64,000 bases of DNA from Pirellulaceae bacterium (GTDB taxonomy: Bacteria > Planctomycetota > Planctomycetia > Pirellulales > Pirellulaceae): positions 124,001 through 188,000 of the forward strand of contig BPJV01000007.1 in the NCBI GenBank assembly GCA_026004795.1, given 5' to 3'. The notes under the pieces are model-generated. The model searched no databases, was not told the origin of the DNA, and saw only the letters and a program-made list of their open reading frames with translations. A program made the position numbers and the translations under genes. Position 1 is the stretch's first letter. Each line of letters starts with the position of its first letter. Shown piece after piece: positions 33,392 through 60,125 of the stretch.

Positions 33392-34111
33392 ATGAAATGG
33401 AGATTGCTGGTGCTCGTCTTCCTGATCATCGCCCTGGCCCTGGCGGCTTGGAGTCTGAGCCACCACCTCCACCTGCAGCAAATCGCCTCCCACGAACAGG
33501 AGCTGCGGCAAACAATTGAGCGCCATCCTATCACCGCTTTCGCGATTGCCCTGGTAGTCAATTACGTGCTGTGTTTGGTGCCGGGGACCAGTGGCAAAAC
33601 GATCGCCATGGGGTGGTTTTTCGGGTTTTGGCGTGCCTTGTTGATTGCCGAAGCTTCCTTGGTATTGGCAGCCGTTACGATGTTTACCTTCTCGCGATTC
33701 TTGTTCGCCGGTTATATTCGCCGCCGGTGGCAACGATGGATGGCCTTGATGGACAACCAAGTGCGCAAGGAAGGAGCGTTTTACCTGTTGACCCTACGCC
33801 TGATGCACGCCCCGTACACGGCGATCAATTACCTTGCGGGGGCCAGTTGCATGCCGCTGAAAACGTTTGTGTGGACGACCGCCCTGGGGATGCTGCCCGG
33901 CAACGTGGTCTTCGCTCTGTTAGGAAGCCACCTGCCGACACTGCGCGAAGTGGCCAAACATGGCCCTCATAGTTTATTGAGACCTTGGTTGATCGTCACT
34001 TTGGGAGCGACCGCAGTACTACCCTACGCCGGGCGGTGGATAGCAAAGAAGTGGTTGAAACGACGGGCTAGGCTCGCTGGAGAACCTTCCGCGGCGAAAA
34101 CGTCTGCCTGA
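33392..34111 (+). CDS. TVP38/TMEM64 (VTT-domain) membrane protein
   Basis: A 239-residue multi-pass membrane protein. It has a first TM segment (LVLVFLIIALALAAWSL), a second around FAIALVVNYVLCLVPG, and the VTT-domain signature GTSGKTIAMGWFFGFWRALL followed by LLTLRLMHAPYTAINYLAGA (about 137-156) and TALGMLPGNVVFALLG. VTT proteins act as lipid scramblases or in membrane homeostasis in some organisms, so the neighbouring cdsA and lipid-kinase genes give a consistent context. GGAAGGGGAGTGCG precedes the ATG. The C-terminus is basic. Confidence 0.88.
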   Translation: MKWRLLVLVFLIIALALAAWSLSHHLHLQQIASHEQELRQTIERHPITAFAIALVVNYVLCLVPGTSGKTIAMGWFFGFWRALLIAEASLVLAAVTMFTFSRFLFAGYIRRRWQRWMALMDNQVRKEGAFYLLTLRLMHAPYTAINYLAGASCMPLKTFVWTTALGMLPGNVVFALLGSHLPTLREVAKHGPHSLLRPWLIVTLGATAVLPYAGRWIAKKWLKRRARLAGEPSAAKTSA

Positions 34112-34181
34112 TCGCCAGCAATCATGGGGAACCGTGGGACGAACACCGGCCGTTGCGCGACTCTTGCCAGAGGAATATTCC

Positions 34182-35156
34182 ATGACGATTGAACGTAACG
34201 TCGCCATTACGCTGGGGGTTCTGGTGGCCACGTTGGTGATCGGCTCCATCGTGCGATTCGTCTCGCTGCGGCGGGCCGATCCGGAAACTCGCCATCAACG
34301 CATGGCCAGTTTGCGCACCTGGTGGGTGCTGGTGACACTCACGGTGGTATCGGTGGCCCTGGGGTCGACCGCCGTGGCATTGATGCTTGCCATTGCCACC
34401 TGTCTGGGACTGCGAGAACTGGAGGCGTTGAGTGTCGAGCGGGCGGACCGGTGGCTCCCCAGGTATGCCGTACACGGCCTGAGCCTCCTATGGTTCGGTT
34501 GGCTGTCCGTGGCGGCCCCTCAGCAGTTTCCCGGTGAACTGTTCTATGCCCTCATCCTGCTGCTGACAGCGATTCATGTGTTCTTTGGTACCCTATCCAG
34601 TTTCACGCGCCGTGTCAGCATTCACACCTGGGGTTGGATCGTCGTCGCCGGTGGTCTCGGGCATTGCGTGTTGCTGACCAGTTTGCCGGCGGCGGAAAAT
34701 GAAACCGCGGGTACGATGGGGTGGTTCCTGTTCGTGCTCATCCTGACGGAGATAAGCGACATTTCCCAGGCGCTCGTCGGACGACAGTTGGGAAGGCGCC
34801 GTTTGGCCCCGATCCTGTCCCCCAAGAAGACGTGGGAAGGTTTCCTCGGAGGGCTGGTCGCTACGCCGATGGTAAGCATGTTGTTGGCCCCATGGTTGAC
34901 TTCCTTGGCAAGCGGAGCGCCCGCTTGGGCCCCTGAGACCAATTGGCCAACGTGGACTGGCCCGCTACTGGCGGGGGTAATGGTCACTTCCGTGGGGTTG
35001 ATTGGAGATCTCAATATGTCTGCGGTGAAACGTTGCGCGGGCGTCAAGGACAGTAGTCAACTGTTGCCTGGCATGGGGGGAATGCTCGATCGCGTGGATA
35101 GCCTCACCTTTACCGCTCCGGCGTTCTATGCGTTTGTCCACTGGTGGTGCATCTGA
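34182..35156 (+). CDS. cdsA: Phosphatidate cytidylyltransferase (CdsA)
   Basis: A 324-residue integral membrane enzyme making CDP-diacylglycerol from phosphatidate and CTP. The diagnostic C-terminal signature S-x-x-K-R-x4-K-D then P-G-x-G-G-x-x-D-R-x-D-S is present as SAVKRCAGVKDSSQ and LPGMGGMLDRVDS (about 286-315), just before the final hydrophobic helix. Seven or eight membrane segments can be traced, and LSPKKTWEGFLGG (about 223-235) is also typical. The start at 34182 is preceded by AGAGGAATATTCC; the frame is open from 34134. It lies directly upstream of a CDP-alcohol transferase, its likely pathway partner. Confidence 0.95.
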   Translation: MTIERNVAITLGVLVATLVIGSIVRFVSLRRADPETRHQRMASLRTWWVLVTLTVVSVALGSTAVALMLAIATCLGLRELEALSVERADRWLPRYAVHGLSLLWFGWLSVAAPQQFPGELFYALILLLTAIHVFFGTLSSFTRRVSIHTWGWIVVAGGLGHCVLLTSLPAAENETAGTMGWFLFVLILTEISDISQALVGRQLGRRRLAPILSPKKTWEGFLGGLVATPMVSMLLAPWLTSLASGAPAWAPETNWPTWTGPLLAGVMVTSVGLIGDLNMSAVKRCAGVKDSSQLLPGMGGMLDRVDSLTFTAPAFYAFVHWWCI

Positions 35157-35269
35157 GATCGCAGTTGACTGGTCAGCCAGGCAATGGCGCACCGTTTGCC
35201 GCGGCAAGAATTGCGATGGGAGTGGACAGGGGATGTAATTTTGCTGGTCCCAACCAAGGAACCTGGTTA

Positions 35270-35938
35270 ATGAATAACCGAGACACCAGAATCATCCACG
35301 AAGGGAACGACCGAAGGGGCCCTTCCACCGCTGCGCCCGCATCTTCTGCTCGTTTATGGACCATCCCCAATGTACTGTGTTTCGTTCGATTGTTCGGTGC
35401 ACCGGTCCTGCTTGCCTTCGCCTGGTGGGAGCAGCGAACGTGGTTCGTGGTTTGGTACCTGATACTCACCGGTACCGATTGGATCGACGGGAAGCTCGCC
35501 ATTCTCCTCAACCAGCGATCGGTGTATGGGGCACGAATCGACAGCTGGGCCGATGCCACGATGTACGCGTGCCTTCTTCTGGGAGGGGGATGGCTGGCCT
35601 CCGAGGCCCTGCTGCAAGAGTGGGCATGGATCGCCTCGGCCGTGGGAAGCTACGCCGTGAGCACCATGGCTGGGCTGTGGAAATTCGGCAAGTGGCCGAG
35701 TTATCACACTCGAGGAGCCAAGATTTCGTGGTTTCTGGTCCTGTTGGGCGCTGTTTGCCTCCTACTGGAGTTCAGCCGGTGGCCGCTGCGCATCGCCATG
35801 GTTTCGGTCACGTTGACCAATATTGAAGCCACCATGATTACTTGGGTCTTGCCCCAGTGGCATGCCGATGTGTTGAACCTTTTTCGGGCCCGGAAACTTG
35901 CCAAGGAACAAGAACTAAAAACGAGTAAGGTAAACTAG
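35270..35938 (+). CDS. CDP-alcohol phosphatidyltransferase family protein
   Basis: A 222-residue membrane enzyme that would move a phosphatidyl group from CDP-diacylglycerol to an alcohol. The motif normally D-x2-D-G-x2-A-R-x8-G-x3-D-x3-D reads DWIDGKLAILLNQRSVYGAR then IDSWAD: the Asp, Gly and Ala positions are kept, but the Arg after Ala is Ile. This may weaken or change activity. Five or so TM segments follow. The N-terminal 30 residues before RLWTIPNVLCFVRL are soluble. The frame opens at 35144; ATG 35270 with AAGGAACCTGGTTA upstream is chosen. Which alcohol (glycerol phosphate, serine, inositol) is used is not readable. Confidence 0.88.
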   Translation: MNNRDTRIIHEGNDRRGPSTAAPASSARLWTIPNVLCFVRLFGAPVLLAFAWWEQRTWFVVWYLILTGTDWIDGKLAILLNQRSVYGARIDSWADATMYACLLLGGGWLASEALLQEWAWIASAVGSYAVSTMAGLWKFGKWPSYHTRGAKISWFLVLLGAVCLLLEFSRWPLRIAMVSVTLTNIEATMITWVLPQWHADVLNLFRARKLAKEQELKTSKVN

Positions 35939-36118: not shown

Positions 36119-36181
<63 letters not shown>

Positions 36182-36191
<10 letters not shown>

Positions 36192-37297
36192 CTGGAATTC
36201 TCTTGCAGCGATGGACTCGGCGGCGCCATGCCGCTTGCGGATCTGCTTGGCGCGTCACGAGGGACAGCAGGTAATTGCCGCCAAGGGCGAATCTGCTGAG
36301 AAAAGTCCGGGTCGCCTGCATGGAGGTGGGCGAGATAATTGATCTTGCATGCCGCTCGAATCTGCTCGAAGGGGCCGTCCATGGCGATCAGGCCTAGTTC
36401 GTAGGCCAAGCGGTCGGAGTTGCCGGGTAGCAAAACGCGAATGTCGCGCTGGATTAGCCCTGGCTGCAGCCGGTCGATCAAGTCGACGATATTGGTAGTG
36501 CAATTGTTGGTGAACAAGTCATAGTGTTCTGGTCGTGCCGCAATCTCGTTCACGCGCTCGACTGCCGCTAAGAATACTTTCTGAACTTGCTCTGGGGTAA
36601 TGCGCAAGGGATAAAGGTAGACGTCCACGTCGCGCACGTCGGTACGCAGTTGGATCAGATCCCGTTCGGTCCCCACCACCCACATGAGTTCATACTGCCC
36701 GGTGGCGCTGGGAACCAAGGCGTAGCTTTCGCCATGTTTCAAGCGTGCTTCCGCCGAGAAGACGATCTGCTCGCCGTCGACCAATCCGAAACTGAGCATC
36801 GTGTGAGCCAATGCCCCGGCCTCTTTGAATGGCACGACCACAAAGTCGAGGCTTTGGACATCGCACAATTGGAGGCGGCGATCGAAATGGCGAACGTCAT
36901 AATCTTCTTCAGTGCGGTACACGCAATCTCGGATGTTGTGCAGATGGATCTGATTTCCAGTGATCTCCGCATACGGCAACACCATCAAGTCGGGGCGCCA
37001 ATTACCTTGATGCGATGGCGGACGACGGCCGCTCCACCGCACTGGCAACTCCAATCGCCTCGATAAGGCGCCTTGATCGGCCGCCAGGCGGGGCGATCGA
37101 TTCCATAGGCTGGTGCAACCACTAGCAAAACAGAGGATAATCAGGGCCCATGCGAGGTGCTCCCATGGCGGTGGGCAGCCGGCCGGCGCGCCATCAGCTT
37201 CGTGATCCCTGGCGGTACCACATCGTTCCGATGTCCCGATGCGACTCCTGGCAACCAAGGCACAGCGATTCATCGGTGGTACGGAATGAATCACCAT
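36182..37297 (-). CDS. DUF4105-like lipoprotein/membrane protein
   Basis: 371 residues. A hydrophobic stretch ending in a lipobox-like LIILCFASGC (about 52-61) implies a lipoprotein, though it lies unusually far from the start; no closer start codon was found. The main domain (about 115-330) resembles DUF4105/Lnb-type periplasmic proteins: QSLDFVVVPFKEAG, GESYALVPSATGQYELMWVV, and the conserved cysteine segment YDLFTNNCTTNIVDL (about 262-276) that would hold the active-site Cys. The last codons lie in the tRNA-Ala acceptor stem on the other strand. It is the last gene of the HlyD/M50 operon, 36 bases after the M50 gene. Its function is unknown. Confidence 0.78.
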
Positions 37298-37333
37298 GAC
37301 TGTGGCTTCCTCTTCGCGTTTCCTACTGCGTAC

Positions 37334-39640
37334 TCAGTTGGCCAGAAAACGGGCGTTCGCATTGAACCATGCCACCAAGCGTCGAAGTATCGACCGCGGG
37401 GGAGTGTGAAATACGACGGCCACGGAACTACCTGCAGCAACGTCGGCGGGAAGCTCTACGGAGCAAAGCGCTGCCCATTGAGCAGCGACAGGAGAACTGG
37501 AGTGGTGGCCCAGCGTCGCCCCCCCCTGTCCGACACCCGGTAATGTCGAGAATGCGGCGCGCCACACTCCACTTATTGTCTCCACATGCCCGATGTGCAT
37601 CACCCGTCCGGAGCAGACTTCATGCCTGTCCTGCAAAGTTAGCTCCACCGGGATTCCCACGGCAATATCGGCCAGTTGCTTTTGTCTCAATGGAACGACA
37701 GCGACGGGCCCTCCCTCCCCGATCACTCCCAATAACGTCCCCCGACGCACCCAGCGACCAATGTCGCCGGACGTTCCCCAACGGTGGTGCACCGCGCGCA
37801 TGGGAGAGGCGTCGTGTGATTGCCGGAGCGCCCTGTAAAAGTCGCCCTCTCTGGTGACGCGAATCGTCAGATCCGCCAACTGCTGCTCCGTGGATTGAAG
37901 CAGCGCTCGGGCTGCTTCCAACTCAGCTTCGAATCTTTGCATATCGACGTCTTCGGCGTACAGGTCGCGCCTCACTCGGGCAGCCTGTAGTCGCTGCTCG
38001 GCCTGAGCTACTGCTCGTAGACGGTCGAGTCGTTCAAGTTCCAACTCCGGATTGTGCAGACGAAATAATGTCTGATCGCGAGAGACGCGTTTTCCGTCGG
38101 GCACCCGATAGGAAATAAGCCGGCCATCGGAAAGAGCATACACACCTTGCGTATGCAGTGGTTGTAGCCACCCCAGCCCCACACGACGCGAGGGGAGAGG
38201 TGTCCATAGGATGGCAACTCCCAACACCGATAACAGGGCCGAGGCTCGCAGTCGTTGCTTCCACGACGTGCCACGTTGCACCATGTTCCACGCTCCAGTA
38301 ATCAGCGGCAGGCCTAACCAGCTAAGCAACAAGGCGCCTGCCATGCCTCGCCCCATCCATGTCATATTCCAATTCTCGGCCACTACGACAATGGCCATCG
38401 CCAACGCTCCTGCCAACGTGGCCCGATAACACCAACTAGCGACAGATAGTCCCGCCCATCCGATCTCGCGCCAATTCCGGAAGATGGGCTGGGCGGGCAT
38501 GCCGCACAAGAGACGCTGCAGGAGGCGATCCCGTGCTGCGTCGGCCCGCCCCCGAAGGTTCGTCACGTTCAGAAGATCGGCAAGCAGGTAGTAGCCATCG
38601 AACCGCATCAGTGGATTCAAGTTCACTGCCAATGTGCTGATGGAACAGACAACCATCACTTGCAAAGCGATCATATTGGCCTGTCCCGTGGTGGTAAGCA
38701 ACCACACCCACGCGGCCAGGATGGCGAGCAGGAATTCGGTGTAGACTCCTGCAGCAGCCACCGCTGCCCGGCCTCGGCGACCGGGCAGCCGCCAGCTCTC
38801 GCTCACGTCGCAGTAAACACACGGCGCGCCGCAGACTAGGAAGAGGCCAATGTCGGGGCAACGGCACCCCCAGCGCTTACAAACAATCGCATGGCCGAGT
38901 TCGTGCGCCGCACGCGTAAGCAGCAGGATCACCAGCAGTTGCAGCGTCTGACGTGGCTGCATCAGCCATTGAAGACTGGTAGTCTGCTCCACGAGGCGAT
39001 GGAAATCCAGCATCAGTCCCATCAACGTGAAGACCCCCACGGCACACCACCGCCGCACAGCAGATGGCGAGTAGATCCCATTGGTGTACGGTGCCACGGT
39101 AGCGAGCCAACGATCCGGATTGACGCCCCGGACACGGAAGACGACCCAGCGTGTTGAAGCGGCTAGCCATGTGGCCGCACTGCGAATTCCTCCTCCCATG
39201 CGGCCCCAGCCTGACAGTTCATGCACCACATTGCCCGCCGGGCTCCCCGTGGGGCACAGCCACCCGGCGACCAACAGCTGGTGCAATGCCATATTCGCGC
39301 GCTGCCACGCTTCTTCAGGAGGAAGTTCGGCCTGTTGAGCGAACTGGGCGACGAGCCTAGGCAAAGGCTGGCGACCGTCGAGACGGCTCAACCACCAGTG
39401 CAACTCCAAGCCAATGCGGGCGCTACGCCGGGTCACGGGATCGAAGACGATCCATCGGGCCGCCGCCGGCACACTATCATCCGCCAGGTCCTGGTCGAGG
39501 TGGATTTCGAGTTCGGGACGAGCGCGCAAGACATGGGACGCGGCAAGGGGCGTGAATTCCTCGCCCGTGGGTTGCTGGCGGTGGCGGACCGCCTCCATCT
39601 GTAGCTGCGATGTCGCGGCGATCGCGTGGCCCCCATCCAT
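37334..39640 (-). CDS. M50-type membrane peptidase-like protein with PqqD-like and HlyD domains
   Basis: 768 residues with three parts. (1) Residues about 45-135 resemble a PqqD-like wing: VFDPVTRRSARIGLELHWWL and YLCP-like ends. (2) An intramembrane segment carries HELGH (about 243-247), the zinc motif of site-2 proteases, with the second M50 motif LNPLMRFDGYYLLAD (about 340-354). (3) The C-terminal third is a HlyD/membrane-fusion portion: a coiled coil (LERLDRLRAVAQAEQRLQAA) and beta segments (GTLLGVIGEGGPVAVVPLRQ). AAAAGGTGACTACCC precedes the ATG. It resembles bacteriocin or peptide export partners; the true substrate is unknown. Confidence 0.88.
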   Translation of the reverse strand: MDGGHAIAATSQLQMEAVRHRQQPTGEEFTPLAASHVLRARPELEIHLDQDLADDSVPAAARWIVFDPVTRRSARIGLELHWWLSRLDGRQPLPRLVAQFAQQAELPPEEAWQRANMALHQLLVAGWLCPTGSPAGNVVHELSGWGRMGGGIRSAATWLAASTRWVVFRVRGVNPDRWLATVAPYTNGIYSPSAVRRWCAVGVFTLMGLMLDFHRLVEQTTSLQWLMQPRQTLQLLVILLLTRAAHELGHAIVCKRWGCRCPDIGLFLVCGAPCVYCDVSESWRLPGRRGRAAVAAAGVYTEFLLAILAAWVWLLTTTGQANMIALQVMVVCSISTLAVNLNPLMRFDGYYLLADLLNVTNLRGRADAARDRLLQRLLCGMPAQPIFRNWREIGWAGLSVASWCYRATLAGALAMAIVVVAENWNMTWMGRGMAGALLLSWLGLPLITGAWNMVQRGTSWKQRLRASALLSVLGVAILWTPLPSRRVGLGWLQPLHTQGVYALSDGRLISYRVPDGKRVSRDQTLFRLHNPELELERLDRLRAVAQAEQRLQAARVRRDLYAEDVDMQRFEAELEAARALLQSTEQQLADLTIRVTREGDFYRALRQSHDASPMRAVHHRWGTSGDIGRWVRRGTLLGVIGEGGPVAVVPLRQKQLADIAVGIPVELTLQDRHEVCSGRVMHIGHVETISGVWRAAFSTLPGVGQGGATLGHHSSSPVAAQWAALCSVELPADVAAGSSVAVVFHTPPRSILRRLVAWFNANARFLAN

Positions 39641-39704
39641 GGGTAGTCACCTTTTCCAAGCATAGCACCAGTAGCCCGCCCGTGACGCCAGACCGTCGGC
39701 TGGA

Positions 39705-40724
39705 CTAGAAATCTTTCTGGTCGAAGTCTTTCTGGTCCAGATCGGCGGGAACCAATAGTTCGACTGTCATTCCAGGTAAGAACCTCCAGTGCTCTCCCTG
39801 GCGGGAATTATCCAATTCAACGTGAATACGAACCAAGCCTTGGGCACTGACTTGATGGTCATAATGGATGATGTGTCCGTCGAGCCGATGGCGGCCGTCG
39901 GCCGTAACTACTTCGGCGACCACCGGTTTTCCGGGCAAAGCGGTCAGGTCGCATTGTCCCAGTGGCACGATCCAGTCCAATCGCAGTTTGCGCAAGTCTT
40001 TGATTTCAGCGAGCGGTTCCCCGACCTCAACCCACTCTCCGGCATGCTTCAGGATTCTGGACACGACCCCAGGCACTTTGGCCCGCACCGTGTGCCGTTG
40101 CAGGCGGAGAAGCGCCACGTTGTACCTGGCTTGGGCTAGTTCTAAATTGAGTCGAGCTTGCTCCAGGGCGCGTTGGGCGTGATGGAGGGCCACCTCCGCT
40201 TTGTCGACGCTCAGTCGTCGACTGCGGATCTCCGATTGGCTTACGCTGCCACCAATCGCCAGGTGATTCTCCAGCTCCGCTTGCAGCTCTTGCAACACCA
40301 GCCGTTGGTGATCGACATCGCTGGTATCCTCTGCCATGACCTTGGCGCTTGCCAGTTGCGAGGCGGCCACCTGCAACTCGGACTGCGCTACCGAAGCATC
40401 GAGTCGGGCAAGTATCTGACCTTCTTCCACCGGCATATCCTCCTCGACGAGGATCTCCGATATCATCCCTCGCTCCACGGCAGGTACCACTACGACACGT
40501 GCCGGGCGGAGTGGATACTGCCCGACTTTGGTCCAGCCTCTCCGCGAGAGGGAGGCATCGGCGCGAGTGGCGGGAGGTGATGGGTCCGCTGCCTGCGTTG
40601 GGCAACAAGGCATCGTTACCAAGCACATGATCGTCAATATCGGCAACACCGTTGCCTCGACAGGCCAGGCATGGCGGCGGTGGCCACGATGCCGTTCTTC
40701 CCATAGTTCCTTATCGCCGATCAT
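39705..40724 (-). CDS. HlyD family efflux adaptor (membrane fusion protein)
   Basis: A 339-residue periplasmic adaptor. It has a hydrophobic N-terminal anchor (VLPILTIMCLVTMPCC), a biotinyl-lipoyl-like part (ISEILVEEDMPVEEGQILARL, about 88-108), a long coiled coil (about 110-225), the second lipoyl half (HTVRAKVPGVVSRILKHAGE) and a beta-barrel domain (VHVEL-type). This is the HlyD/AcrA arrangement. The tail is a direct duplication, DQKDF DQKDF (DNA copies at about 39709-39739). GGGGAGGAACCTT precedes ATG 40724; the longer open frame from 40856 is rejected because it overlaps the upstream gene. No ABC or RND transporter gene is adjacent. Confidence 0.9.
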   Translation of the reverse strand: MIGDKELWEERHRGHRRHAWPVEATVLPILTIMCLVTMPCCPTQAADPSPPATRADASLSRRGWTKVGQYPLRPARVVVVPAVERGMISEILVEEDMPVEEGQILARLDASVAQSELQVAASQLASAKVMAEDTSDVDHQRLVLQELQAELENHLAIGGSVSQSEIRSRRLSVDKAEVALHHAQRALEQARLNLELAQARYNVALLRLQRHTVRAKVPGVVSRILKHAGEWVEVGEPLAEIKDLRKLRLDWIVPLGQCDLTALPGKPVVAEVVTADGRHRLDGHIIHYDHQVSAQGLVRIHVELDNSRQGEHWRFLPGMTVELLVPADLDQKDFDQKDF

Positions 40725-40774
40725 AAGGTTCCTCCCCTGCATGCCTGCATGGCCGCTGCCATTACCTGTCCGTT

Positions 40775-42949
40775 CTACCATAGCATGCGAATCCAGGAGG
40801 AGACGGCCCAAAATGCATCGCGGCATACCAACCACACCAGCGGTTGATGGCCACATTCGACGACGACCCGCGCCACGGCACCTTCCTCCTGGACCGGGAG
40901 AGCATCGTCCGTGATCTGAGCAACGGCAGGAACGACTGCTTGAAAATCTGGCGCGTCGCTCTGCAGGTGAATCGCTTCCGCCGCCACGTTGACCAACCGT
41001 CCTTCGCGAATTCGATCCGGCTGACTATTCAACACGATTTGGCAGGCCAAACCTTCCCCATGCTGGGCAAGTGCTTGACGGATTCTTCCTGCCTGTCGAT
41101 CTGCTATCGTGAATTCGACGTGCCACCCTTGATCCGGCGCGAAGGTTTCCAACAGCAGTTCACCACTCCCGACCGGCCGATTGGTCAGACGCTCGACCAT
41201 GCGCCAGGTGAGCACTTGACCGGGCGCGATGGCGCGAATCTCCAGTTCATCACGCTGCTCGAGCAACAATTGCAGTTGCTGCTGTAGGGCGGCCACATCC
41301 CCCTCTAATTGATATATCTCTCCTTCGAGTTGATCGACTTCGGCATCGCTCAATTCACTGGCCCGACGATGCCAGGCCCGCGCGGTCTGCAATCGGCGCG
41401 TCTGCACCTCGATTTGCCCCTGTACCGCGGCAATCTGCCGGTCGAGTTCCCGCGACTGAAGTTGGAGCAACAGCGTGCCAGGCTGGACCTCATCCCCGGA
41501 GCGGACGACGACCTGCTGTACCGTTGCAGCTCGCGGCGCGTAGTAGGGAACTTTTGCCGCCGCCCGCATCGTACCGATCGCGGTGAGCTGATCGGGTATG
41601 GGAAATGCAGCGATGGCGGCCAGGAGTGCTACCCCGACCAACGCTCTTACTCGGGACGATGAGGTTGCGCCGAGTCCCTCCGGCCTCCGCCACAGGCGGA
41701 TCCCCCCAACAGATCGTTGATGGTACTGCTGTTGGGCGACCAGCAACCGGGCTATCGATTCGGCAATCGACCACGGCCGGTTCTCCGCTGGCGATCGCTC
41801 ATCGGCATGCTGGGCCACCATTTCCTGGGCGTCGTCCAGAAGCTTGTAACCGAGAAGAAAGGCGATGTCGTCCTCGGTTTTCGTACGATAGAACAGCAGG
41901 CCGCGACAATGCAGGGAAGTTGCCACCGCCTCCACCGCCTCCGTCAACAACGATTCGTCGAGCTGGCGCAGCGTCGATGCCTGACTGGCGACAGCACTTT
42001 CCGCCCCCACCGCGTTCGCGCTGGTTCGACCTTGTTCCACCGGACCAACTCGACGTTCCCGCGTTGGCAGCAGCACCACCTTGCCGGGCTCAGGAAATCG
42101 ATTCATCCTTTTCCATCGTCGCAGCAGGTTGCGCAGCTGCAGCGCCAATTCGCTGCGAGGATCGGGCGTCGGTGTTCCACGCACGGCGAGAAGAGGTCGA
42201 CGCGAGCCTAGTCGTAAAACAGCCGCATTGTCGGCAGCGGTCAACAGGCAAAAGCCATCGATGGCTCGCCGACACGCTCGGTCGAAGTCGGCTGCCTGCG
42301 CCAGCTCGAGGAGCAAGTTCTCCGTGTGGGCAAACTCCTCGACTCGACATTCCCACTGTCGAAGGCGATGACGCCGCAAGAAATCAGCAACGATTTCGCT
42401 CATCTGCGCCATGAAGCGCAAATACCCTTTCTGAGCGGTCGGCCCACCGGTGTGGGGCATGACCACTTCCAACACGCCGTCGATGCGGTCGTCGACACGG
42501 TAGGGGGCGACGAGCAAGGTCTGCGATAGCGGGTTTTGCAATCTCGTTCCACTGGTATCTGTGCTGCACCGGGGAGGAACAAGTACCGGTCGACCCTCAG
42601 CGGCGACTGCGCGGAGAATGGCAGCATGCGCCTCGCTCGGGGAAACACCATTGTAAAGCACGGAGGGGAGTTCGAGTTGGGCCACGAGCGAACAGCTGCC
42701 GTCGAGATCCGTACTCCATGCCGCCGCTCCACTCGCCGCTACGGCGGTGCACAGTCGGGGAAGGAACGCTTCCCAAAACTCTCCTGGTTCGAGGCGAGCG
42801 GATGCCAGCTGAGCCATCTCGGCGGCCAGCATGCGGATGTCGCTCTTGACCTGCTCGACCGTCGATTGTCCCGCGAGAGGCGAAGCGAAACTATCGCCCA
42901 CCGAGGCGGAATCGTAGGCAGCACCTGAATCGAAAGCCACAGCCCGCAC
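40775..42949 (-). CDS. GAF-domain/HlyD hybrid adaptor protein
   Basis: 724 residues. The N-terminal 380 residues look like one or two GAF-type sensor domains: LCTAVAASGAAAWSTDLDGS, QTLLVAPYRVDDRIDGVLEV, and FCLLTAADNAAVLRLGSRRP. A TM helix follows (VRALVGVALLAAIAAFPI, about 426-443). Then come HlyD features: YYAPRAATVQQVVVRSGDEV, a coiled coil (about 495-565), and beta-barrel segments. Fusing a sensory GAF module to an adaptor is unusual. The start is GTG 42949 with GAGGA very close, or GTG 42940 with better spacing. It is the first gene of the four-gene operon. Function is inferred only: regulated export. Confidence 0.82.
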   Translation of the reverse strand: MRAVAFDSGAAYDSASVGDSFASPLAGQSTVEQVKSDIRMLAAEMAQLASARLEPGEFWEAFLPRLCTAVAASGAAAWSTDLDGSCSLVAQLELPSVLYNGVSPSEAHAAILRAVAAEGRPVLVPPRCSTDTSGTRLQNPLSQTLLVAPYRVDDRIDGVLEVVMPHTGGPTAQKGYLRFMAQMSEIVADFLRRHRLRQWECRVEEFAHTENLLLELAQAADFDRACRRAIDGFCLLTAADNAAVLRLGSRRPLLAVRGTPTPDPRSELALQLRNLLRRWKRMNRFPEPGKVVLLPTRERRVGPVEQGRTSANAVGAESAVASQASTLRQLDESLLTEAVEAVATSLHCRGLLFYRTKTEDDIAFLLGYKLLDDAQEMVAQHADERSPAENRPWSIAESIARLLVAQQQYHQRSVGGIRLWRRPEGLGATSSSRVRALVGVALLAAIAAFPIPDQLTAIGTMRAAAKVPYYAPRAATVQQVVVRSGDEVQPGTLLLQLQSRELDRQIAAVQGQIEVQTRRLQTARAWHRRASELSDAEVDQLEGEIYQLEGDVAALQQQLQLLLEQRDELEIRAIAPGQVLTWRMVERLTNRPVGSGELLLETFAPDQGWHVEFTIADRQAGRIRQALAQHGEGLACQIVLNSQPDRIREGRLVNVAAEAIHLQSDAPDFQAVVPAVAQITDDALPVQEEGAVARVVVECGHQPLVWLVCRDAFWAVSSWIRMLW

Positions 42950-43005: not shown

Positions 43006-43470
43006 CTAGTTCGGTGGCTGCCATTGCAAACTGCTGGGTGGTGAGTTTGGCGGGCTGGCTGGCGTGGTGGAATAGGACGCACCGGAGCTGTTACCGTAGT
43101 TGGCCTTGGGGGCCGCGGCAGGAGGCATCGTCCCCCACCCAGCTGCCGATGCTCCGTTGCCGGAGTAGGTGGCCGCCCCAGCAGCCGAGTAGCTCGCCGG
43201 TTGCACCGCAGACGAACTGGCGATACCCGGTGGTGCGTAGCTCGTCGTAGCACCAACTCCCGGCTGCGGCGTTTGTGGGGGTTGCACATTGTTGTAATAT
43301 CCAGGAGGCAATTGATAGGTTCCCGTCCCCGGCGGTGGCACGCGGACCGGATTCATCCAACCCCCGCCCCATCCCTGGCAGCCGGCGAATGTTACCAATC
43401 CGGCCATGGTCACCAGAATCGACGTGGCAATACTGAGTGGACGGCGCCGTAGGTTGACGGAGCGCTTCAT
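43006..43470 (-). CDS. Proline/glycine/serine-rich lipoprotein
   Basis: 154 residues. A signal sequence with lipobox, ILVTMAGLVTFAGC, places the lipidated Cys near residue 31. After GWGGGWMNPVRVPPPGTGTY, the rest is low-complexity, rich in Pro, Gly, Ser, Tyr, Ala, with PPGYYNN-like and SYS repeats. No catalytic motif is seen. AAAGGAACACCAGC precedes ATG 43470; the open frame goes to 43500. It is likely cell-surface or outer-membrane associated. It lies just downstream of nothing on its strand and is divergent from the BamA pair. Confidence 0.75.
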   Translation of the reverse strand: MKRSVNLRRRPLSIATSILVTMAGLVTFAGCQGWGGGWMNPVRVPPPGTGTYQLPPGYYNNVQPPQTPQPGVGATTSYAPPGIASSSAVQPASYSAAGAATYSGNGASAAGWGTMPPAAAPKANYGNSSGASYSTTPASPPNSPPSSLQWQPPN

Positions 43471-43760
43471 GCTGGTGTTCCTTTCTTGGGAAGCGAACAA
43501 TGACTAGGGTAGGTCTGCAGGCTACACAAATACCGAGGTCAAACTCCAGTCCACTTGGCGAGGCAATATGGGAAAAACGCAAACGCTCCCCGACTAGCCA
43601 AGCCCATCCTTGATCCATGATTCCCTCCGACACCGCCGCAGCCCAAACGAGGCGGAATCCGGGTTGTCCTCAGCATGAAGGTTCGAGTAATTACCAAGGG
43701 GCTCGTGAACTTATTCCGACGCATTACAGGCAGTGCTTGCAGGTCAGGGAGGACCTTGGA

Positions 43761-45191
43761 GTGACAGATACGAGGCAACAGCGCGGTTTCTTCCTGGGGG
43801 TGTGCGCACGATGCCTGCTCGTCGTGCTGACCGTTCAGGAAGCAACGATGCTTCCCACCTCGGCGCAGGGGCCGCCCGGAGCTGGCGGAGGCGGTCCGGG
43901 GGGCGCGCCAGCGATGGTCGATCCCAGCTTTCGTGACCGATTGTGGGAAGCTGGGGGCCCGCGTCTCAGCGGTCTGAACGATGGCAAGCTCGTCGCCGAC
44001 GTGCAGATCACCGGCAATCGTTCGGTCAGTAATCACAAGATCCTCTCGCACATGCAAACGCGGAAAGACCGCATCTTCGACGACAAACAGTTGCAGCAAG
44101 ATATCCACGAACTTTATCGCACGGAACTGTTTCGGAAGATCACTCCCCGCATCGTCGAATCGGGAGAGGCGGTCATCGTGCGACTGGAGGTGGTCGAGCA
44201 ACCGACCGTGACCAGCGTTGTTTACCACGGCAATCGCCGGCTGGACGACCGCATGCTGGCCAAACACTGTGGCATCGAGGTAGGAGAACCGATCAACCCC
44301 TTTGCGGTCGATATGGCCCGTCAACGCTTGATCGATCTCTACTTGGAAAATGGATTCAATCAGGTAGCTATCGAAGTGAAATCGGGTAACCGAGTTGGAG
44401 ATCGCGATGTCATCTTCGAGATCGCCGAGGGACCATTGGAGCGCATATGGTCCATCGAATTCGTCGGTAATCAGGCATTCAGTACCGCCCTGCTGCGCAC
44501 TAAGATCAAATCCCGAGATGCCCGCTATGGTTTGACTTCGTACCTATTCAATAAAGCCAACATGCAGCAGATCGATAACGACGCCAATCTGATCCTGGCA
44601 TATTATCGCTCGCTGGGGTACTTCAAAGCGCGAGTCGACCACCGGATTACCTACCATGACGACAGCGACTTCATCGATGTGACGTTCTTCATCGACGAAG
44701 GGGAACGATTTCGCGTACGCAATGTCACCACCGTGGGGAACAAATTCTTCTCGACCGAGTTGCTGACCGCCGAACTCGATTTGAAGCCGGGAGACTACTT
44801 CAATCTGGCGAAAATGTCGCGCGATCAGCGACGCTTACGCAACGATTTCTATGGTCGTGAAGGCTTCGTTTTTGTCGATGTGGTCGCCGAACCGCGGTTT
44901 CTTACCGAACCCGGAATGCTCGACTTGGTTTACCGCATCAATGAGGGAGATCGCTATCGAGCAGGCGAGATCAATGTCCATATCTTGGGTGATTCAAGCC
45001 ACACGCAGCACAATGTAGTACTGAATCTTATCGGCCTCCGCGAGGGGCAGTACATCGATTTGCAAGAACTGGAGAACAGTGAGCGACGGTTACGGTTCTC
45101 GCAGATTTTCGAAACCAATCCGGCCATGGGAGAACCGCCGCGTATCGAAGTTCGACCACCGGATGCAGATCCAGATCAGTTTGGCTACTAA
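43761..45191 (+). CDS. POTRA-domain outer-membrane assembly protein (BamA N-terminal half)
   Basis: 476 residues from a GTG start at 43761, which has a perfect GGGAGG eight bases upstream; the annotated open frame from 43617 lacks such a site. It has a signal-like FFLGVCARCLLVVLTV and a Gly/Pro-rich linker, then repeated POTRA domains: VADVQITGNRSVSNHKI, TSVVYHGNRRLDDRMLAK, IWSIEFVGNQAFSTALLRTK, VRNVTTVGNKFFSTELLTAE, and a last partial domain ending RRLRFSQIFETNP. The beta-barrel half of BamA is absent; the next gene supplies it after 9 bases. The protein would recruit outer-membrane substrates in the periplasm. Confidence 0.9.
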   Translation: MTDTRQQRGFFLGVCARCLLVVLTVQEATMLPTSAQGPPGAGGGGPGGAPAMVDPSFRDRLWEAGGPRLSGLNDGKLVADVQITGNRSVSNHKILSHMQTRKDRIFDDKQLQQDIHELYRTELFRKITPRIVESGEAVIVRLEVVEQPTVTSVVYHGNRRLDDRMLAKHCGIEVGEPINPFAVDMARQRLIDLYLENGFNQVAIEVKSGNRVGDRDVIFEIAEGPLERIWSIEFVGNQAFSTALLRTKIKSRDARYGLTSYLFNKANMQQIDNDANLILAYYRSLGYFKARVDHRITYHDDSDFIDVTFFIDEGERFRVRNVTTVGNKFFSTELLTAELDLKPGDYFNLAKMSRDQRRLRNDFYGREGFVFVDVVAEPRFLTEPGMLDLVYRINEGDRYRAGEINVHILGDSSHTQHNVVLNLIGLREGQYIDLQELENSERRLRFSQIFETNPAMGEPPRIEVRPPDADPDQFGY

Positions 45192-45200
45192 GGATACCTC

Positions 45201-46766
45201 ATGAGACAGGATGTCATGTTGCTGGATCACCCCCTGGGGAGGCGACGAAAAAACCGAGCGGTCCCGATGCTGGTCCTCCTGCTTGTTGCCAGTACGGGTT
45301 GCCAGTTGGGGGCGCTGAGAACCCAGGCCCCCCAAGGGCTCGAGGATGTCGCTCAGTCGCCATCGCTGCAGGGCTCCCCAGCGCGCACCACCGACTGGGA
45401 GCCACCGATCGTTCGCGGCCAATCCCCCGGTGGTACTCCCAATCCCGGAATCTATCCACCAGCTACGGCGGCGCCCTACGGATCCCCTTCCACCAATCCC
45501 AGCATTTCCTCGGCGGACACCTCCTCCACTCCACCCTTGGTCGTTCCGCCACCACCACCGGCCAGTTATGACAGCACGCTGGTCCCGGGAGCAACGCAGT
45601 ACGCCCCCACTACGGTTCAACCAACTCCATGGATTGACCCCAACCTGGGAATCACCGCGCCCGGAGTGACCGGCTATCAGCCACGAGAACGGGTGGCCCC
45701 CATCGACGTTTGGGTTCAAGAGGCACGCACCGGCAGGATCATCCTCGGAGGGTCCGTCAACAGCGATTTAGGAGTCGCCGGCCAACTGATCATCGATGAA
45801 CGCAATTTTGATATCCGCCGCATCCCACGTAGTTGGGATGACCTCTGGAGCGGCCGGGCGTTTCGCGGGGCCGGCCAGAACTTTCGCCTGGAGTTGATGC
45901 CCGGTAGCCAGGTCGAACGCTACACCGTCACCTGGTCGGAACGGAACCTGTTCGGCTACCTTCCTTATAGCCTTTCTGTCGGGGGCTTCCTCTACACACG
46001 ACAGTACCGCGATTGGTCGGAACAACGCCTCGGCGGTAGGATTGCCCTGGGGTACGAAGTTACCAAAGACCTTTCGGTCAGCACAGAATTGCGACTGGAG
46101 GATGTCAAATTGTTCGACCCTCGCATCGCCGGGGTGCCAGAACTCGATTCTGCGCTCGGCAGCAACGATCTATATACGGCACGATTCCGCGTCGCTCACG
46201 ATACAAGGGACAGTCCGTTCATGTCGACCGAAGGAGGAATGCTGGAACTTGTATTCGATCAGGTCTTCGGTGAGTACGACTACTCTCGCGGAAACGTAAG
46301 TTACTCGCGCTACTTTTTGCTTCGCGAACGTCCCGATGGAACCGGTCGACATGTCCTGGCTTCCACCTTCCGCGTGGGAGTTACCGGGGCACAAACTCCG
46401 ATATTCGAGAATTACTTCGCGGGGGGATACTCCACTCTCCGCGGTTTTCGTTTTCGAGGCGCCAGCCCGAAAGTCAGTGACGTGCAGGTCGGTGGTGAAT
46501 TCTTGATGCTCGGTAGCGTCGAATACGTCTTTCCGCTCACTGCTGATGAAATGCTCCGCGGCGTAGCCTTTGTCGATTACGGAACGGTGGAACGCGATAT
46601 CGAATTGAACAGCGAAAACTTTCGCGTATCGCCCGGTCTGGGGTTGCGAGTCAGTGTGCCCGCACTTGGACCGGCGCCGTTGGCATTCGACTTTGCCTAT
46701 CCGGTCAATCGTGCCGACACGGACGAGACTCAGGTCTTCAGTTTCTTCATGGGATTTACCCGATAA
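45201..46766 (+). CDS. BamA/TamA-type outer-membrane beta-barrel protein (lipoprotein-like start)
   Basis: 521 residues. N-terminal lipobox MLVLLLVASTGC (about 23-34), then a Pro/Ser/Thr-rich linker to about 160, then a D15/BamA 16-strand beta-barrel region. The conserved L6-loop motif is FAGGYSTLRGFRFRGASP (about 409-426), and VEYVFPLTADEMLRGVAFVDYG and the final FFMGFTR, an aromatic-ended strand, are also typical. There are no POTRA domains. Together with the previous gene it makes up one BamA; the pair is 9 bases apart. Either BamA is split in this lineage or this is a second, dedicated barrel. Confidence 0.9.
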   Translation: MRQDVMLLDHPLGRRRKNRAVPMLVLLLVASTGCQLGALRTQAPQGLEDVAQSPSLQGSPARTTDWEPPIVRGQSPGGTPNPGIYPPATAAPYGSPSTNPSISSADTSSTPPLVVPPPPPASYDSTLVPGATQYAPTTVQPTPWIDPNLGITAPGVTGYQPRERVAPIDVWVQEARTGRIILGGSVNSDLGVAGQLIIDERNFDIRRIPRSWDDLWSGRAFRGAGQNFRLELMPGSQVERYTVTWSERNLFGYLPYSLSVGGFLYTRQYRDWSEQRLGGRIALGYEVTKDLSVSTELRLEDVKLFDPRIAGVPELDSALGSNDLYTARFRVAHDTRDSPFMSTEGGMLELVFDQVFGEYDYSRGNVSYSRYFLLRERPDGTGRHVLASTFRVGVTGAQTPIFENYFAGGYSTLRGFRFRGASPKVSDVQVGGEFLMLGSVEYVFPLTADEMLRGVAFVDYGTVERDIELNSENFRVSPGLGLRVSVPALGPAPLAFDFAYPVNRADTDETQVFSFFMGFTR

Positions 46767-57257: not shown

Positions 57258-58544
<1,287 letters not shown>

Positions 58545-58635: not shown

Positions 58636-59541
58636 TCAAATGCTGCCGTGACGAAGTTTTTCGAGTTCCGTAATAATCTTGCCTTCGCGAAATACGGTCA
58701 CGGTGCCGGTGGATTCACTTACCGCGACAGCGACGGAGTCGGTTACGGCGGTGATCCCAGCAGCGGCATGGTGTCGTGCTCCCAAGCCACGTGGGAGGGC
58801 GTAATCGTCTTCGTCCTGAAGTGCGGTTTTCAAATAAGCTCCGCAGGTTTCGATGGTACCATCGCCGTCGATGATAAAGGCGCCGTCAATGGTGGATAGC
58901 TCCTTGACGGTTTCTTCCAACGCGGGATCCAGCACGTTGCGTTCTTCGCGTGCATACCCACGAAATGGGTTGATGATTAATTGGCGCGTAAGCGACATCA
59001 CCCGCTGGCTGTCGCCGATCACGAAGAGGGCCCCGACGGGCTTTCCCTCGCGCCCTTCACTTCCTAGTTCGGCCGCGATGTCGATTACCCGTTCGACGAC
59101 CTCAGGCTTAATGCCCGGGGGCACAAATGTCTCATCGCGCATAGGAATAAGGCCATCGGCGTCGGTGCCAACCTCTGTGACAAAGAGAGTGTCGAGCTGG
59201 GGGGTGTTGGGTTCGCCGAGGAGGAAGGCAACTATTTCGCCTTTCTGCACGATCCCTTTGGACACCGCCAGGAATAGAGCAACTTTGGCTTGCCCCAAGC
59301 GGTTCAGTCGGACATCCGGCACTCTAACGAAACGTCTTCCTCCAAGTTCTGCCGCATCCTGTTCGCGGTCAGTTTTCAGCGCCAGCACCACTCGGTCCGA
59401 AACGCGCTCCAGCTCTGCACGCAACTCATCGGTCACCGCATGTGCGTAAAGAAAGAATTTCGAGGCATTGCATTCCAGGACCACGTCCACGGCATGTCGA
59501 ATCAAGGAGTAAGAGATTCGCTGTTGTGTTGGCGATTCCAT
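58636..59541 (-). CDS. Diadenylate cyclase, DacZ-like (c-di-AMP synthase)
   Basis: 301 residues. The C-terminal DAC domain (about 170-301) has the DGA motif STIDGAFIIDGDGTIE (about 190-205) and the RHxxA motif LGARHHAAAGITAVTDSVAV (about 240-260), which bind ATP and make c-di-AMP. The N-terminal 165 residues (SLIRHAVDVVLECNASKFFL, then VALFLAVSKGIVQKGEIVAF) resemble the pyruvate-kinase-C-like domain found in DacZ. AGGAG lies 9 bases before ATG 59541; the longer frame to 59817 is rejected. An AsnC-type regulator lies 101 bases upstream on the same strand. Confidence 0.87.
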   Translation of the reverse strand: MESPTQQRISYSLIRHAVDVVLECNASKFFLYAHAVTDELRAELERVSDRVVLALKTDREQDAAELGGRRFVRVPDVRLNRLGQAKVALFLAVSKGIVQKGEIVAFLLGEPNTPQLDTLFVTEVGTDADGLIPMRDETFVPPGIKPEVVERVIDIAAELGSEGREGKPVGALFVIGDSQRVMSLTRQLIINPFRGYAREERNVLDPALEETVKELSTIDGAFIIDGDGTIETCGAYLKTALQDEDDYALPRGLGARHHAAAGITAVTDSVAVAVSESTGTVTVFREGKIITELEKLRHGSI

Positions 59542-59642
59542 GTGGTGAACTCCTGGCCCCGCTAGGGGGCGTAGAGGCAGCGATGGGACGATTCCGAACT
59601 TACCGATCCCTACCGAGAGAGATCCTGAGCAGTTCGACGCGG

Positions 59643-60125
59643 CTACCGTAAAGGCAGGCCGCAACTCGGTTTGACAGTGCGCAGCGACAATACCGACTGG
59701 ATGCGGGTTACGCCCGGAAGGCGGCTGATCGATTGGCGAAGAATCCGCTCGTAATCTTCCGCATCGAGGGCGATCACCCGCAACAGATAGTCGTATTGCC
59801 CCCCCACGAGGTAGCATTCGAGCACTTCAGGGATCTTGAGCACTTCGCGTTCGAACTCTTCGAACGCTCCTTCCGCCTGAGTTGCCAGGGAAAGCTCCAC
59901 GAAAAACTCAATCGAATACCCGAGCCGTTTGGAGGACAGGCGAGCAACATAGCCGGTGATCAGCCCACTTTCCTCCAGTGCCTTGATGCGACGATGGCAG
60001 GCGGAAGTGGAGAGTTTGGCTTTGACTGCAATCTGGGCGACCGTCTGGCGACAATCCTTTTGCAACTCTTCGAGAATGACGATATCGGACTCGTCTAAAG
60101 CAATCTCAGGTTGTTTCTGTCTCAT
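59643..60125 (-). CDS. Lrp/AsnC family transcriptional regulator
   Basis: 160 residues: a winged HTH (LDESDIVILEELQKDCRQTV, AQIAVKAKLSTSACHRRIKA, about 10-50) and the RAM/AsnC ligand domain (about 75-150: EFFVELSLATQAEGAFEEFE, LECYLVGGQYDYLLRVIALD). This is the typical Lrp/AsnC layout, responding to amino acids. It probably shares a transcript with the diadenylate cyclase downstream. The ligand is unknown. The Lrp signature Y-L-x-G-x-x-D-Y-L is fully kept. Confidence 0.94.
   Translation of the reverse strand: MRQKQPEIALDESDIVILEELQKDCRQTVAQIAVKAKLSTSACHRRIKALEESGLITGYVARLSSKRLGYSIEFFVELSLATQAEGAFEEFEREVLKIPEVLECYLVGGQYDYLLRVIALDAEDYERILRQSISRLPGVTRIQSVLSLRTVKPSCGLPLR

Follow-up and report, generated by a model that had tools for sequence, protein, structure and literature searches.

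Type I secretion systems (T1SS), which export giant adhesins and RTX proteins, consist of an ABC transporter, an HlyD-type adaptor and a TolC-type channel, and their secretion signals are typically C-terminal. Accessory Sec (SecA2) systems serve large adhesins of Gram-positive bacteria, and PqqD/RRE domains bind leader peptides. Here we describe a cassette of three genes, encoding a GAF-HlyD protein, an HlyD protein and a PqqD-M50-HlyD protein (M50-HlyD), in a 64,000-nt stretch of the genome of a Pirellulaceae bacterium of the Planctomycetota (GenBank assembly GCA_026004795.1, contig BPJV01000007.1, positions 124,001 to 188,000 of the forward strand; hereafter the window). The cassette is conserved, and on balance we favour, with moderate confidence, the view that it is the envelope-spanning core of an undescribed exporter for mostly large, N-terminally tagged surface proteins, a function that we infer.

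The cassette resembles a T1SS in its HlyD adaptors, in the TolC-type channel that accompanies one subtype of its relatives (subtype B, described below) and in having a giant repeat protein in the operon. It differs in that no ABC ATPase was seen in the operon, where the PqqD-M50-HlyD protein takes the inner-membrane place, and in that the candidate signal is N-terminal. Structure searches link the adaptor fold to the tripartite efflux pumps of the RND and MacAB types (MexA, MacA and ZneB), but no RND or MacB partner was present in the scanned window and the adaptors here are fused to GAF or M50 domains. The M50 domain region matches the profiles of the daptide (NF041824) and YydH/LiaK M50 proteases; the matches, however, fall below the curated cut-offs, an extra periplasmic HlyD domain is present and no short precursor was noted. 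A second SecA paralog for large surface proteins would be a parallel to the SecA2 systems, although the hosts here are double-membrane bacteria and the partners are adaptors and an M50 protein. Since the parts are known, their combination is unlike the secretion systems known to us and the ABC transporter that defines a T1SS was not found among the scanned window proteins, we take the cassette as a candidate new system. No description of such a machine was found in the open-licence PMC literature, which was covered mostly as titles and abstract openings and exclusive of preprints, and the available portions of PMC3482391 and PMC1569441 contain nothing on one.

Many very large surface proteins of planctomycetes carry an N-terminal signal that was proposed in 2004 (Studholme, cited in the available part of PMC8567305), and the cassette is a concrete candidate for the machine. 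The signal, RRLxxExLExRxLLA (PF07595), is thought to be a novel N-terminal export signal (PMC8567305, citing Studholme 2004) and is carried by eight of the ten longest proteins of Tuwongella immobilis; the same excerpt names no exporter for it. LEPR-XLL occurs in two further papers, PMC10868602, which mentions a giant of about 8000 residues, and PMC9611531. Both PF07595 and the LEPR-XLL/LEPR-8K family (NF012209) describe the tag on the candidate substrates, a signal rather than a machine.

The three genes lie on the minus strand of the window at 40775-42949 (GAF-HlyD), 39705-40856 (HlyD, RND-type periplasmic adaptor) and 37334-39640 (M50-HlyD), followed on the same strand by a fourth open reading frame (ORF) with an Lnb_N domain (formerly DUF4105) at 36182-37297. 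All four were found where an earlier reading of the bare sequence (the original prediction) had placed them (36182-42949). The intergenic gaps are 56, 64 and 36 nt. From its first start the HlyD ORF overlaps that of GAF-HlyD by 82 nt; an ATG at 40724, preceded by the Shine-Dalgarno-like sequence GGGGAGGAACCTT, removes this overlap and is probably the true start, giving an HlyD gene of 39705-40724. The claim that no ABC or RND pump adjoins the genes agrees with a Pfam scan of 29 window proteins (28 of the 53 ORFs that reach 200 amino acids and a 164-residue lipoprotein), none of which was an ABC or RND pump, nor any other RND protein; RND pumps were not sought elsewhere in the genome.

The original prediction was to fall if the cluster were not conserved in other genomes, but the three-gene core proved to be conserved. 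Searches with the M50-HlyD protein gave matches in 59 of 60 genomes, that of the window included, with up to eight in one genome. Of 99 planctomycete loci compared (the window plus L032-L131, two duplicates removed), one lacked an M50 call and a further 24, whose contigs end less than 3.6 kb upstream, were left out. GAF-HlyD and HlyD genes were found upstream of the M50 gene, on the same strand, in 55 of the 74 loci with at least 3.6 kb of upstream sequence; the remaining 19 comprise seven with no called HlyD, four with no called GAF and eight with neither. Among the best 80 of 555 confirmed relatives the named loci are labelled as planctomycetes, save two labelled only 'bacterium', and include Rhodopirellula baltica, Roseimaritima, Thermogutta, Gemmataceae, Fuerstiella and one Candidatus Kuenenia.

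Of the M50 protease with a HELGH motif and a PqqD-like wing that had been read from the sequence, the protease part is borne out. Peptidase_M50 matches the window protein at 2.7e-10, and H246, E247, H250 and D348, which make up HExxH and the distal Asp of NPxxxFDG, are invariant in all 47 aligned proteins, that of the window among them. The HELGH zinc-binding motif (residues 246-250) is encoded at 38891-38905 and the NPLMRFDG motif (residues 342-349), which holds the third ligand D348 and in which N342, P343, L344 and G349 are also invariant, at 38594-38617, both on the minus strand. The wing is detected in part of the family: Pfam finds M50 in 47 of the 47 aligned members, HlyD_3 in 45 and PqqD in 27 (E ≤ 0.05; best E 3.1e-5), and the window protein itself has no PqqD match. 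Its AlphaFold2 model, built on the 47-protein alignment (A3; pLDDT 82.6, pTM 0.74), has at about residues 63-131 a predicted β-hairpin/three-helix domain in the position of the wing and with compatible secondary structure, then a membrane bundle carrying HELGH and NPLMRFDG, and then a periplasmic adaptor part with an α-hairpin (residues 531-561 and 567-589). This adaptor part gives no Pfam match at E ≤ 0.1 and a weak NCBIfam match, and is clear in the predicted structure; MexA, ZneB and MacA adaptors were matched to it within the 50 best rows of a Foldseek search of the PDB. A search of the PDB with the A3 profile returned one M50 entry alongside adaptors and carrier proteins of the biotin/lipoyl type, and a profile of the wing domain returned no chain at E ≤ 10.

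The GAF-HlyD protein of the window matches HlyD_3 (2e-7) and GAF (6.3e-4; 20.7 bits, just below the cut-off of 22.4). The GAF fusion, seen at the outset as an oddity, proved to be a regular part of the cassette, with GAF (PF01590) detected in 30 of 35 aligned members, the window protein included, at E ≤ 0.05. The AlphaFold2 model (pLDDT 75.9, pTM 0.44) shows a GAF-like first domain, a poorly predicted region (residues 275-390), one membrane helix and an adaptor with an α-hairpin; hydropathy likewise gives a single transmembrane segment at about residues 431-458, and the cytosolic region probably contains a second GAF-like part. Foldseek ranked MacA, MexC-like and AcrA adaptors highest in the PDB (best E 1.4e-13). 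The middle HlyD protein matches HlyD_3 (5.7e-10) and, under its cut-off, the NCBIfam model RND_mfp (3e-23).

Relatives outside the planctomycetes add partners to the cassette. Searches of plasmids with tblastn gave 71 records with M50-HlyD relatives, and 13 proteobacterial loci were viewed, two of which are unannotated and were compared only with selected queries. TolC adjoins the cassette in eight (Variovorax, E. coli, three Azospirillum, Magnetospirillum, Thalassospira and Indioceanicola) and a SecA-like ATPase in three (Pseudosulfitobacter, Rhodobacteraceae M382 and Sinorhizobium); neither was seen beside the cassette in Eleftheria and Phyllobacterium. A TolC-type channel also lies beside the cassette in two loci of the Planctomycetota (L184 and L185), and in the genome of the window OEP genes are present elsewhere. 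For the annotated loci, the gene tables, which are incomplete, list no ABC, RND or MFS pump within the adaptor-M50 run; in Phyllobacterium a separate T1SS lies on the opposite strand at a distance of about 3 kb, and an MFS gene precedes the adaptors by about 6 kb.

By tree, 11 M50 proteins from these loci split into two sets, subtypes A and B, and the class Planctomycetia falls on the other side of the tree from both. Subtype B, found in Azospirillum, Burkholderiales, E. coli plasmids and others, and including L184 and L185, has the order giant repeat protein, TolC, RND-type HlyD, HlyD of about 450 residues and M50-HlyD; TolC was present in most of the loci viewed and SecA was seen beside none of them. 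Its 450-residue adaptor aligns with the last two thirds of the GAF-HlyD profile (hhalign 98.8%). Subtype A has the order LEPR-XLL giant, GAF-HlyD and M50-HlyD, followed in Pseudosulfitobacter and Sinorhizobium by SapC, a SecA-like gene and HlyD, and by tree it also takes in the SecA-bearing loci of the Planctomycetota. The Pseudosulfitobacter gene annotated as 'prepilin peptidase' is SecA-like (PF07517, 8.5e-99); the GAF-HlyD of this locus aligns over nearly its full length with the planctomycete GAF-HlyD profile (hhalign 99.3%, 5.4e-20), and its M50-HlyD matches the second copy in the genome of the window (BLASTP 7e-79). Thalassospira is of subtype A by tree, yet has TolC and DUF3467, with no GAF match and no SecA seen in its operon.

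The SapC-family gene accompanies the LEPR-XLL giant and SecA subtype in Rhodobacterales and Sinorhizobium (L139 9642-10463, L194 10642-11463 and L200 12069-12848). Of 5426 complete E. coli genomes, 24 carry the subtype B M50-HlyD gene (query L135:7398-9530), and 21 of its 25 places are plasmid-borne.

The proteobacterial loci also share a candidate signal. In 11 of the 13, a motif of the form LExRx(L/M)(L/F) stands at the N-terminus of large proteins in or near the operon, read by eye from MEALEPRFLLSAD, VEPIEPRILLSAD, MALEPRFMFDAA, ALEARLMFDAA, MALEARYMFDAA and ALESRQLFDGA. In eight of these 11 loci the giant ORF adjoining the cassette carries the motif and in three it is on a nearby upstream ORF or gene fragment. 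In Indioceanicola this is the large ORF that comes next upstream; the A. thermophilum gene is split, and its first fragment carries the motif; in M382 the carrier is a LEPR-XLL gene that lies about 16 kb upstream, across the start of the record. In Azospirillum TSA2s the motif precedes the annotated start by 395 codons, in frame and with no intervening stop. The planctomycete signal is a motif of the same kind and is now tied to the proteobacterial LEPR-XLL motif. The genome of the window has 13 PF07595 matches at E ≤ 0.01, including proteins of 6330 and about 5057 residues; in all 13 the motif begins no later than residue 111 of the ORF, usually preceded by a basic stretch, and a strict pattern of the motif fits nine. 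The strict pattern was found in four of 12,350 shuffled N-termini; among ORFs it was found in three of 169 from the proteobacterial loci and two of 247 from the phylum loci, these five being candidate substrates. The signal would consist of a basic stretch followed by ExLExRxLL-A/S-x-D, or of the related LExRxMFDA.

Across a sample of 199 genomes of Planctomycetota, an accessory SecA and the signal follow the cassette. M50-HlyD (E ≤ 1e-20) is present in 46, made up of 12 of the 12 of the class Planctomycetia and 34 of the 187 outside it. Short accessory SecA genes, sorted by hand on ORF length, match completeness and, for a few, adjacency, were counted among the matches listed: they occur in 28 of the 46 genomes with M50-HlyD versus two of the 153 without it (Fisher p 9.5e-20, kinship ignored), in 17 of 34 versus two of 153 outside the class, and in 11 of the 12 Planctomycetia genomes. 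Of the 38 accessory SecA places, 18 have an M50 place no more than 8 kb away, on the same strand in 17 cases. Inspection of 20 stretches from the phylum, 19 with M50, found SecA beside M50 in 11 (weak in L180) and TolC in two, L184 and L185; a motif-like N-terminus stands on a large protein in L182, L184, L185 and L187, of which the strict pattern keeps L182 and L187. The PF07595 profile was too short for this purpose and was replaced by a signal profile of 34 columns (A7). At E ≤ 1e-3, A7 matches 19 genomes, namely 17 of the 46 with M50-HlyD versus two of the 153 without it (Fisher p 1.3e-10, kinship ignored), or nine of 34 versus two of 153 outside the class; at E ≤ 1e-2 the counts are 21 of 46 versus 20 of 153. 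Each of the 13 genomes with at least two A7 matches at E ≤ 0.01 has both M50-HlyD and an accessory SecA.

The genome of the window holds a second cassette, on contig C10 (G000:C10), in which a DUF3467 gene follows the M50-HlyD gene. In all, L032 (8101-8556) and 19 other loci of 92 have this C10-type arrangement, and DUF3467 precedes the cassette in four more. In a tree of 59 M50 proteins, a branch with 100/100 support sets apart the 11 of the window type, which come exclusively from the genus of the window and have a stem of 0.91 and end branches of 0.48-1.25; for the C10 type within this genus the figure is about 0.15-0.2. The latter type evolves slowly and is common to the wider family, so the tree indicates that the window holds a derived, fast-evolving, genus-restricted paralog. 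A few M50-HlyD paralogs among the places listed have one in-frame stop (e.g. G023:C56 and G032:C10).

A small lipoprotein gene at 43006-43500 (minus strand), with a hydrophobic N-terminus and a FAGC lipobox (GTYQLPPGYYNN), lies 56 nt upstream of GAF-HlyD in the same direction; it is the only match of its kind in its own genome at E ≤ 0.1. Homologues with 32-47% identity lie directly upstream of GAF-HlyD in four window-type loci (L036, L038, L040 and L042) and none was seen in L037; L033, L034, L035 and L039, which end before or inside GAF-HlyD, were left out. The gene probably heads the operon as a clade-specific fifth component. A survey for a conserved fifth gene, whether a pump or a precursor peptide, had been proposed at the outset; the lipoprotein is the better fifth partner, albeit a clade-specific one, and no ABC or RND pump appeared among the scanned window proteins.

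If the cassette is such an exporter, the PqqD-like wing of the M50 protein may, by analogy with PqqD/RRE domains, recognise the signal at the inner membrane, and the M50 site, its catalytic residues being intact, would cleave or release it. The three HlyD-type domains could then form a mixed periplasmic adaptor tube docking on an outer-membrane channel, as their predicted folds and the TolC genes beside some relatives suggest, and the cytosolic GAF region may sense a ligand and gate the tube. In subtype A, that is in the LEPR-XLL Alphaproteobacteria and in Planctomycetota outside the class, the associated paralogous SecA-like ATPase would drive translocation, and it probably does so in the Planctomycetia as well, given its presence among the matches listed in nearly all genomes sampled. 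By implication, a secretion route without an ABC pump could be built from efflux-type adaptors, an intramembrane protease and a SecA paralog. The window copy, which has a small lipoprotein to itself, probably handles a narrower range of substrates, and its link to tagged export is by homology, as no recognised tagged gene lies in the window and the SecA gene is elsewhere in the genome. We advance more tentatively, as a proposal that may well prove too specific, a new class of system common to Planctomycetota and Proteobacteria, in which a SecA paralog feeds tagged giants to a PqqD-M50 receptor-protease within a three-subunit, GAF-gated adaptor tube, and of which the window would hold a second, specialised copy that has a lipoprotein to itself.

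Several observations weigh against an exporter of tagged proteins. In the window itself, no recognised tagged protein, SecA or TolC was found in the scanned part; of its non-overlapping ORFs of at least 200 residues none fits the strict pattern, and two lenient matches lack the context of the pattern. The accessory SecA of this genome is not on the contig of the window but lies about 55 kb from the second cassette, the only match to NF012209 in the genome is under the cut-off, and one window-type locus (L041, genome G003) shows neither GAF-HlyD nor HlyD upstream of the M50 gene. Among the proteobacterial loci, those of Phyllobacterium and Magnetospirillum have no tagged protein beside the cassette. 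SecA lies near the cassette in only eight of 92 planctomycete loci, and members of an ABC-ATPase family (identified by eye) occur near seven of the 92, on either strand and at varied distances (e.g. L053 14952-15707), so that a pump acting in trans is conceivable. The co-occurrence is also imperfect: PF07595 itself matches 16 of the 199 genomes, only seven of them with M50-HlyD; A7 was trained partly on the genome of the window; 20 of the 41 signal genomes at E ≤ 1e-2 have no M50, mostly with single weak matches, and G243 and G113 have the signal at E ≤ 1e-3 and no M50; 29 of the 46 genomes with M50-HlyD have no signal at E ≤ 1e-3, or 25 of 46 at 1e-2; and the Fisher tests ignore the relatedness of the genomes.

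The resemblance to peptide processing in the original prediction points to another reading, that of a maturation exporter of the kind that serves ribosomally synthesised and post-translationally modified peptides (RiPPs), in which a leader would be bound by PqqD and cleaved by M50, with the adaptors handing a small peptide to a distant ABC exporter. The best NCBIfam match of the M50 protein is indeed the daptide intramembrane metalloprotease NF041824 (2.5e-41, residues 164-442), followed by YydH/LiaK (3.8e-7, residues 206-362). The scores, 142.1 bits for the former and 30 bits for the latter, are nevertheless far under the cut-offs of 300 and 225, no ABC exporter is present among the scanned window proteins, and the neighbours of the proteobacterial relatives, in which no systematic search for short precursor genes was made, are mostly giant proteins; we judge this reading improbable, and of the early resemblance it is export, of large proteins rather than processed peptides, that is retained. 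Slightly less probable again is a set of small-molecule efflux adaptors for a pump encoded elsewhere, with the M50 protein as an accessory quality-control protease. It would account for the likeness of the HlyD domains to MexA, MacA and ZneB, for the 20 OEP match pieces in the genome, which show that outer channels exist, and for the ABC-ATPase family near some cassettes, but not readily for adaptor-M50 runs in which no pump is listed.

The intact S2P-type active site and the cytosolic GAF domain fused across the membrane would also suit regulated intramembrane proteolysis, with GAF-HlyD as sensor and the M50 protein cleaving a membrane-bound regulator. This we hold to be the least probable reading, as no recurring sigma/anti-sigma pair was apparent by eye in the neighbour clusters, not all of which were scanned with Pfam, and it is SecA, DUF3467 and, elsewhere, TolC that recur as partners at a fixed position. 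A Ser/Thr-kinase family lies near nine loci, on either strand. Rather less remote, though still unlikely, is that the window copy is a duplicate with a lost or changed export role and that only the C10 copy exports tagged proteins: the window-type M50 proteins form a clade confined to the genus, with long stem and end branches, and neither DUF3467 nor SecA stands beside the window copy, yet its catalytic residues, three-gene order and clade-specific lipoprotein have all been kept. The export of large tagged proteins remains the favoured function of the cassette, and the protease-adaptor secretion machine first raised as a possibility gains support from the conservation of the trio, from proteobacterial operons that combine it with TolC or a SecA-like ATPase and a large tagged protein, and from the co-occurrence of the signal.

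The fourth gene of the supposed four-gene operon does not belong to the conserved machine; the trio stands, and the DUF4105 gene is no constant partner but a co-directional passenger. Its Lnb_N match is strong (2.2e-34, 119 bits against a cut-off of 22.2), and DUF4105 has been identified as the Bacteroides lipoprotein N-acyltransferase Lnb (PMC12994826; PMC12345273, citing PNAS 2024; both available in part). Lnb_N is present in 43 of the 60 genomes and, among the places listed, adjoins the M50 gene in two, that of the window and G002; in G009, a genome on one contig, about 2.9 Mb separate it from the closest of the M50 places listed. The window protein, a putative lipoprotein N-acyltransferase-like protein of 371 residues, has by hydropathy only one hydrophobic segment, at residues 47-66, and so no C-terminal membrane domain. 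Such a domain is a feature of Lnb. The genome also encodes Lnt (G000:C2:715931-717364, 214.4 bits with its neighbours in frame), and Lnb_N was rejected as a working partner on this ground and on its rare adjacency to M50.

Other genes of the window were noted in passing. A tRNA-Ala(GGC) gene at 36119-36192 (plus strand) shares 11 nt with the 3' end of the Lnb_N ORF, which lies on the other strand. Convergent to Lnb_N, at 33392-35938 (plus strand), are a CTP_transf_1 (CdsA-type) gene and a CDP-OH_P_transf gene, both of phospholipid synthesis, and a hydrophobic ORF that we take to be DedA-like. An IS110-type transposase gene (57279-58544) adjoins a gene for a DacZ-like diadenylate cyclase at 58636-59817 (minus strand; DAC 2e-22, DacZ_P 5.6e-7). 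Divergent from the export operon, at 43617-46766 (plus strand), BamA is apparently split over two adjoining genes, the first encoding a POTRA protein of 524 residues (PF07244, 5.8e-51) and the second an Omp85 barrel of 521 residues (PF01103, 4.5e-46) with a lipoprotein-like N-terminus.

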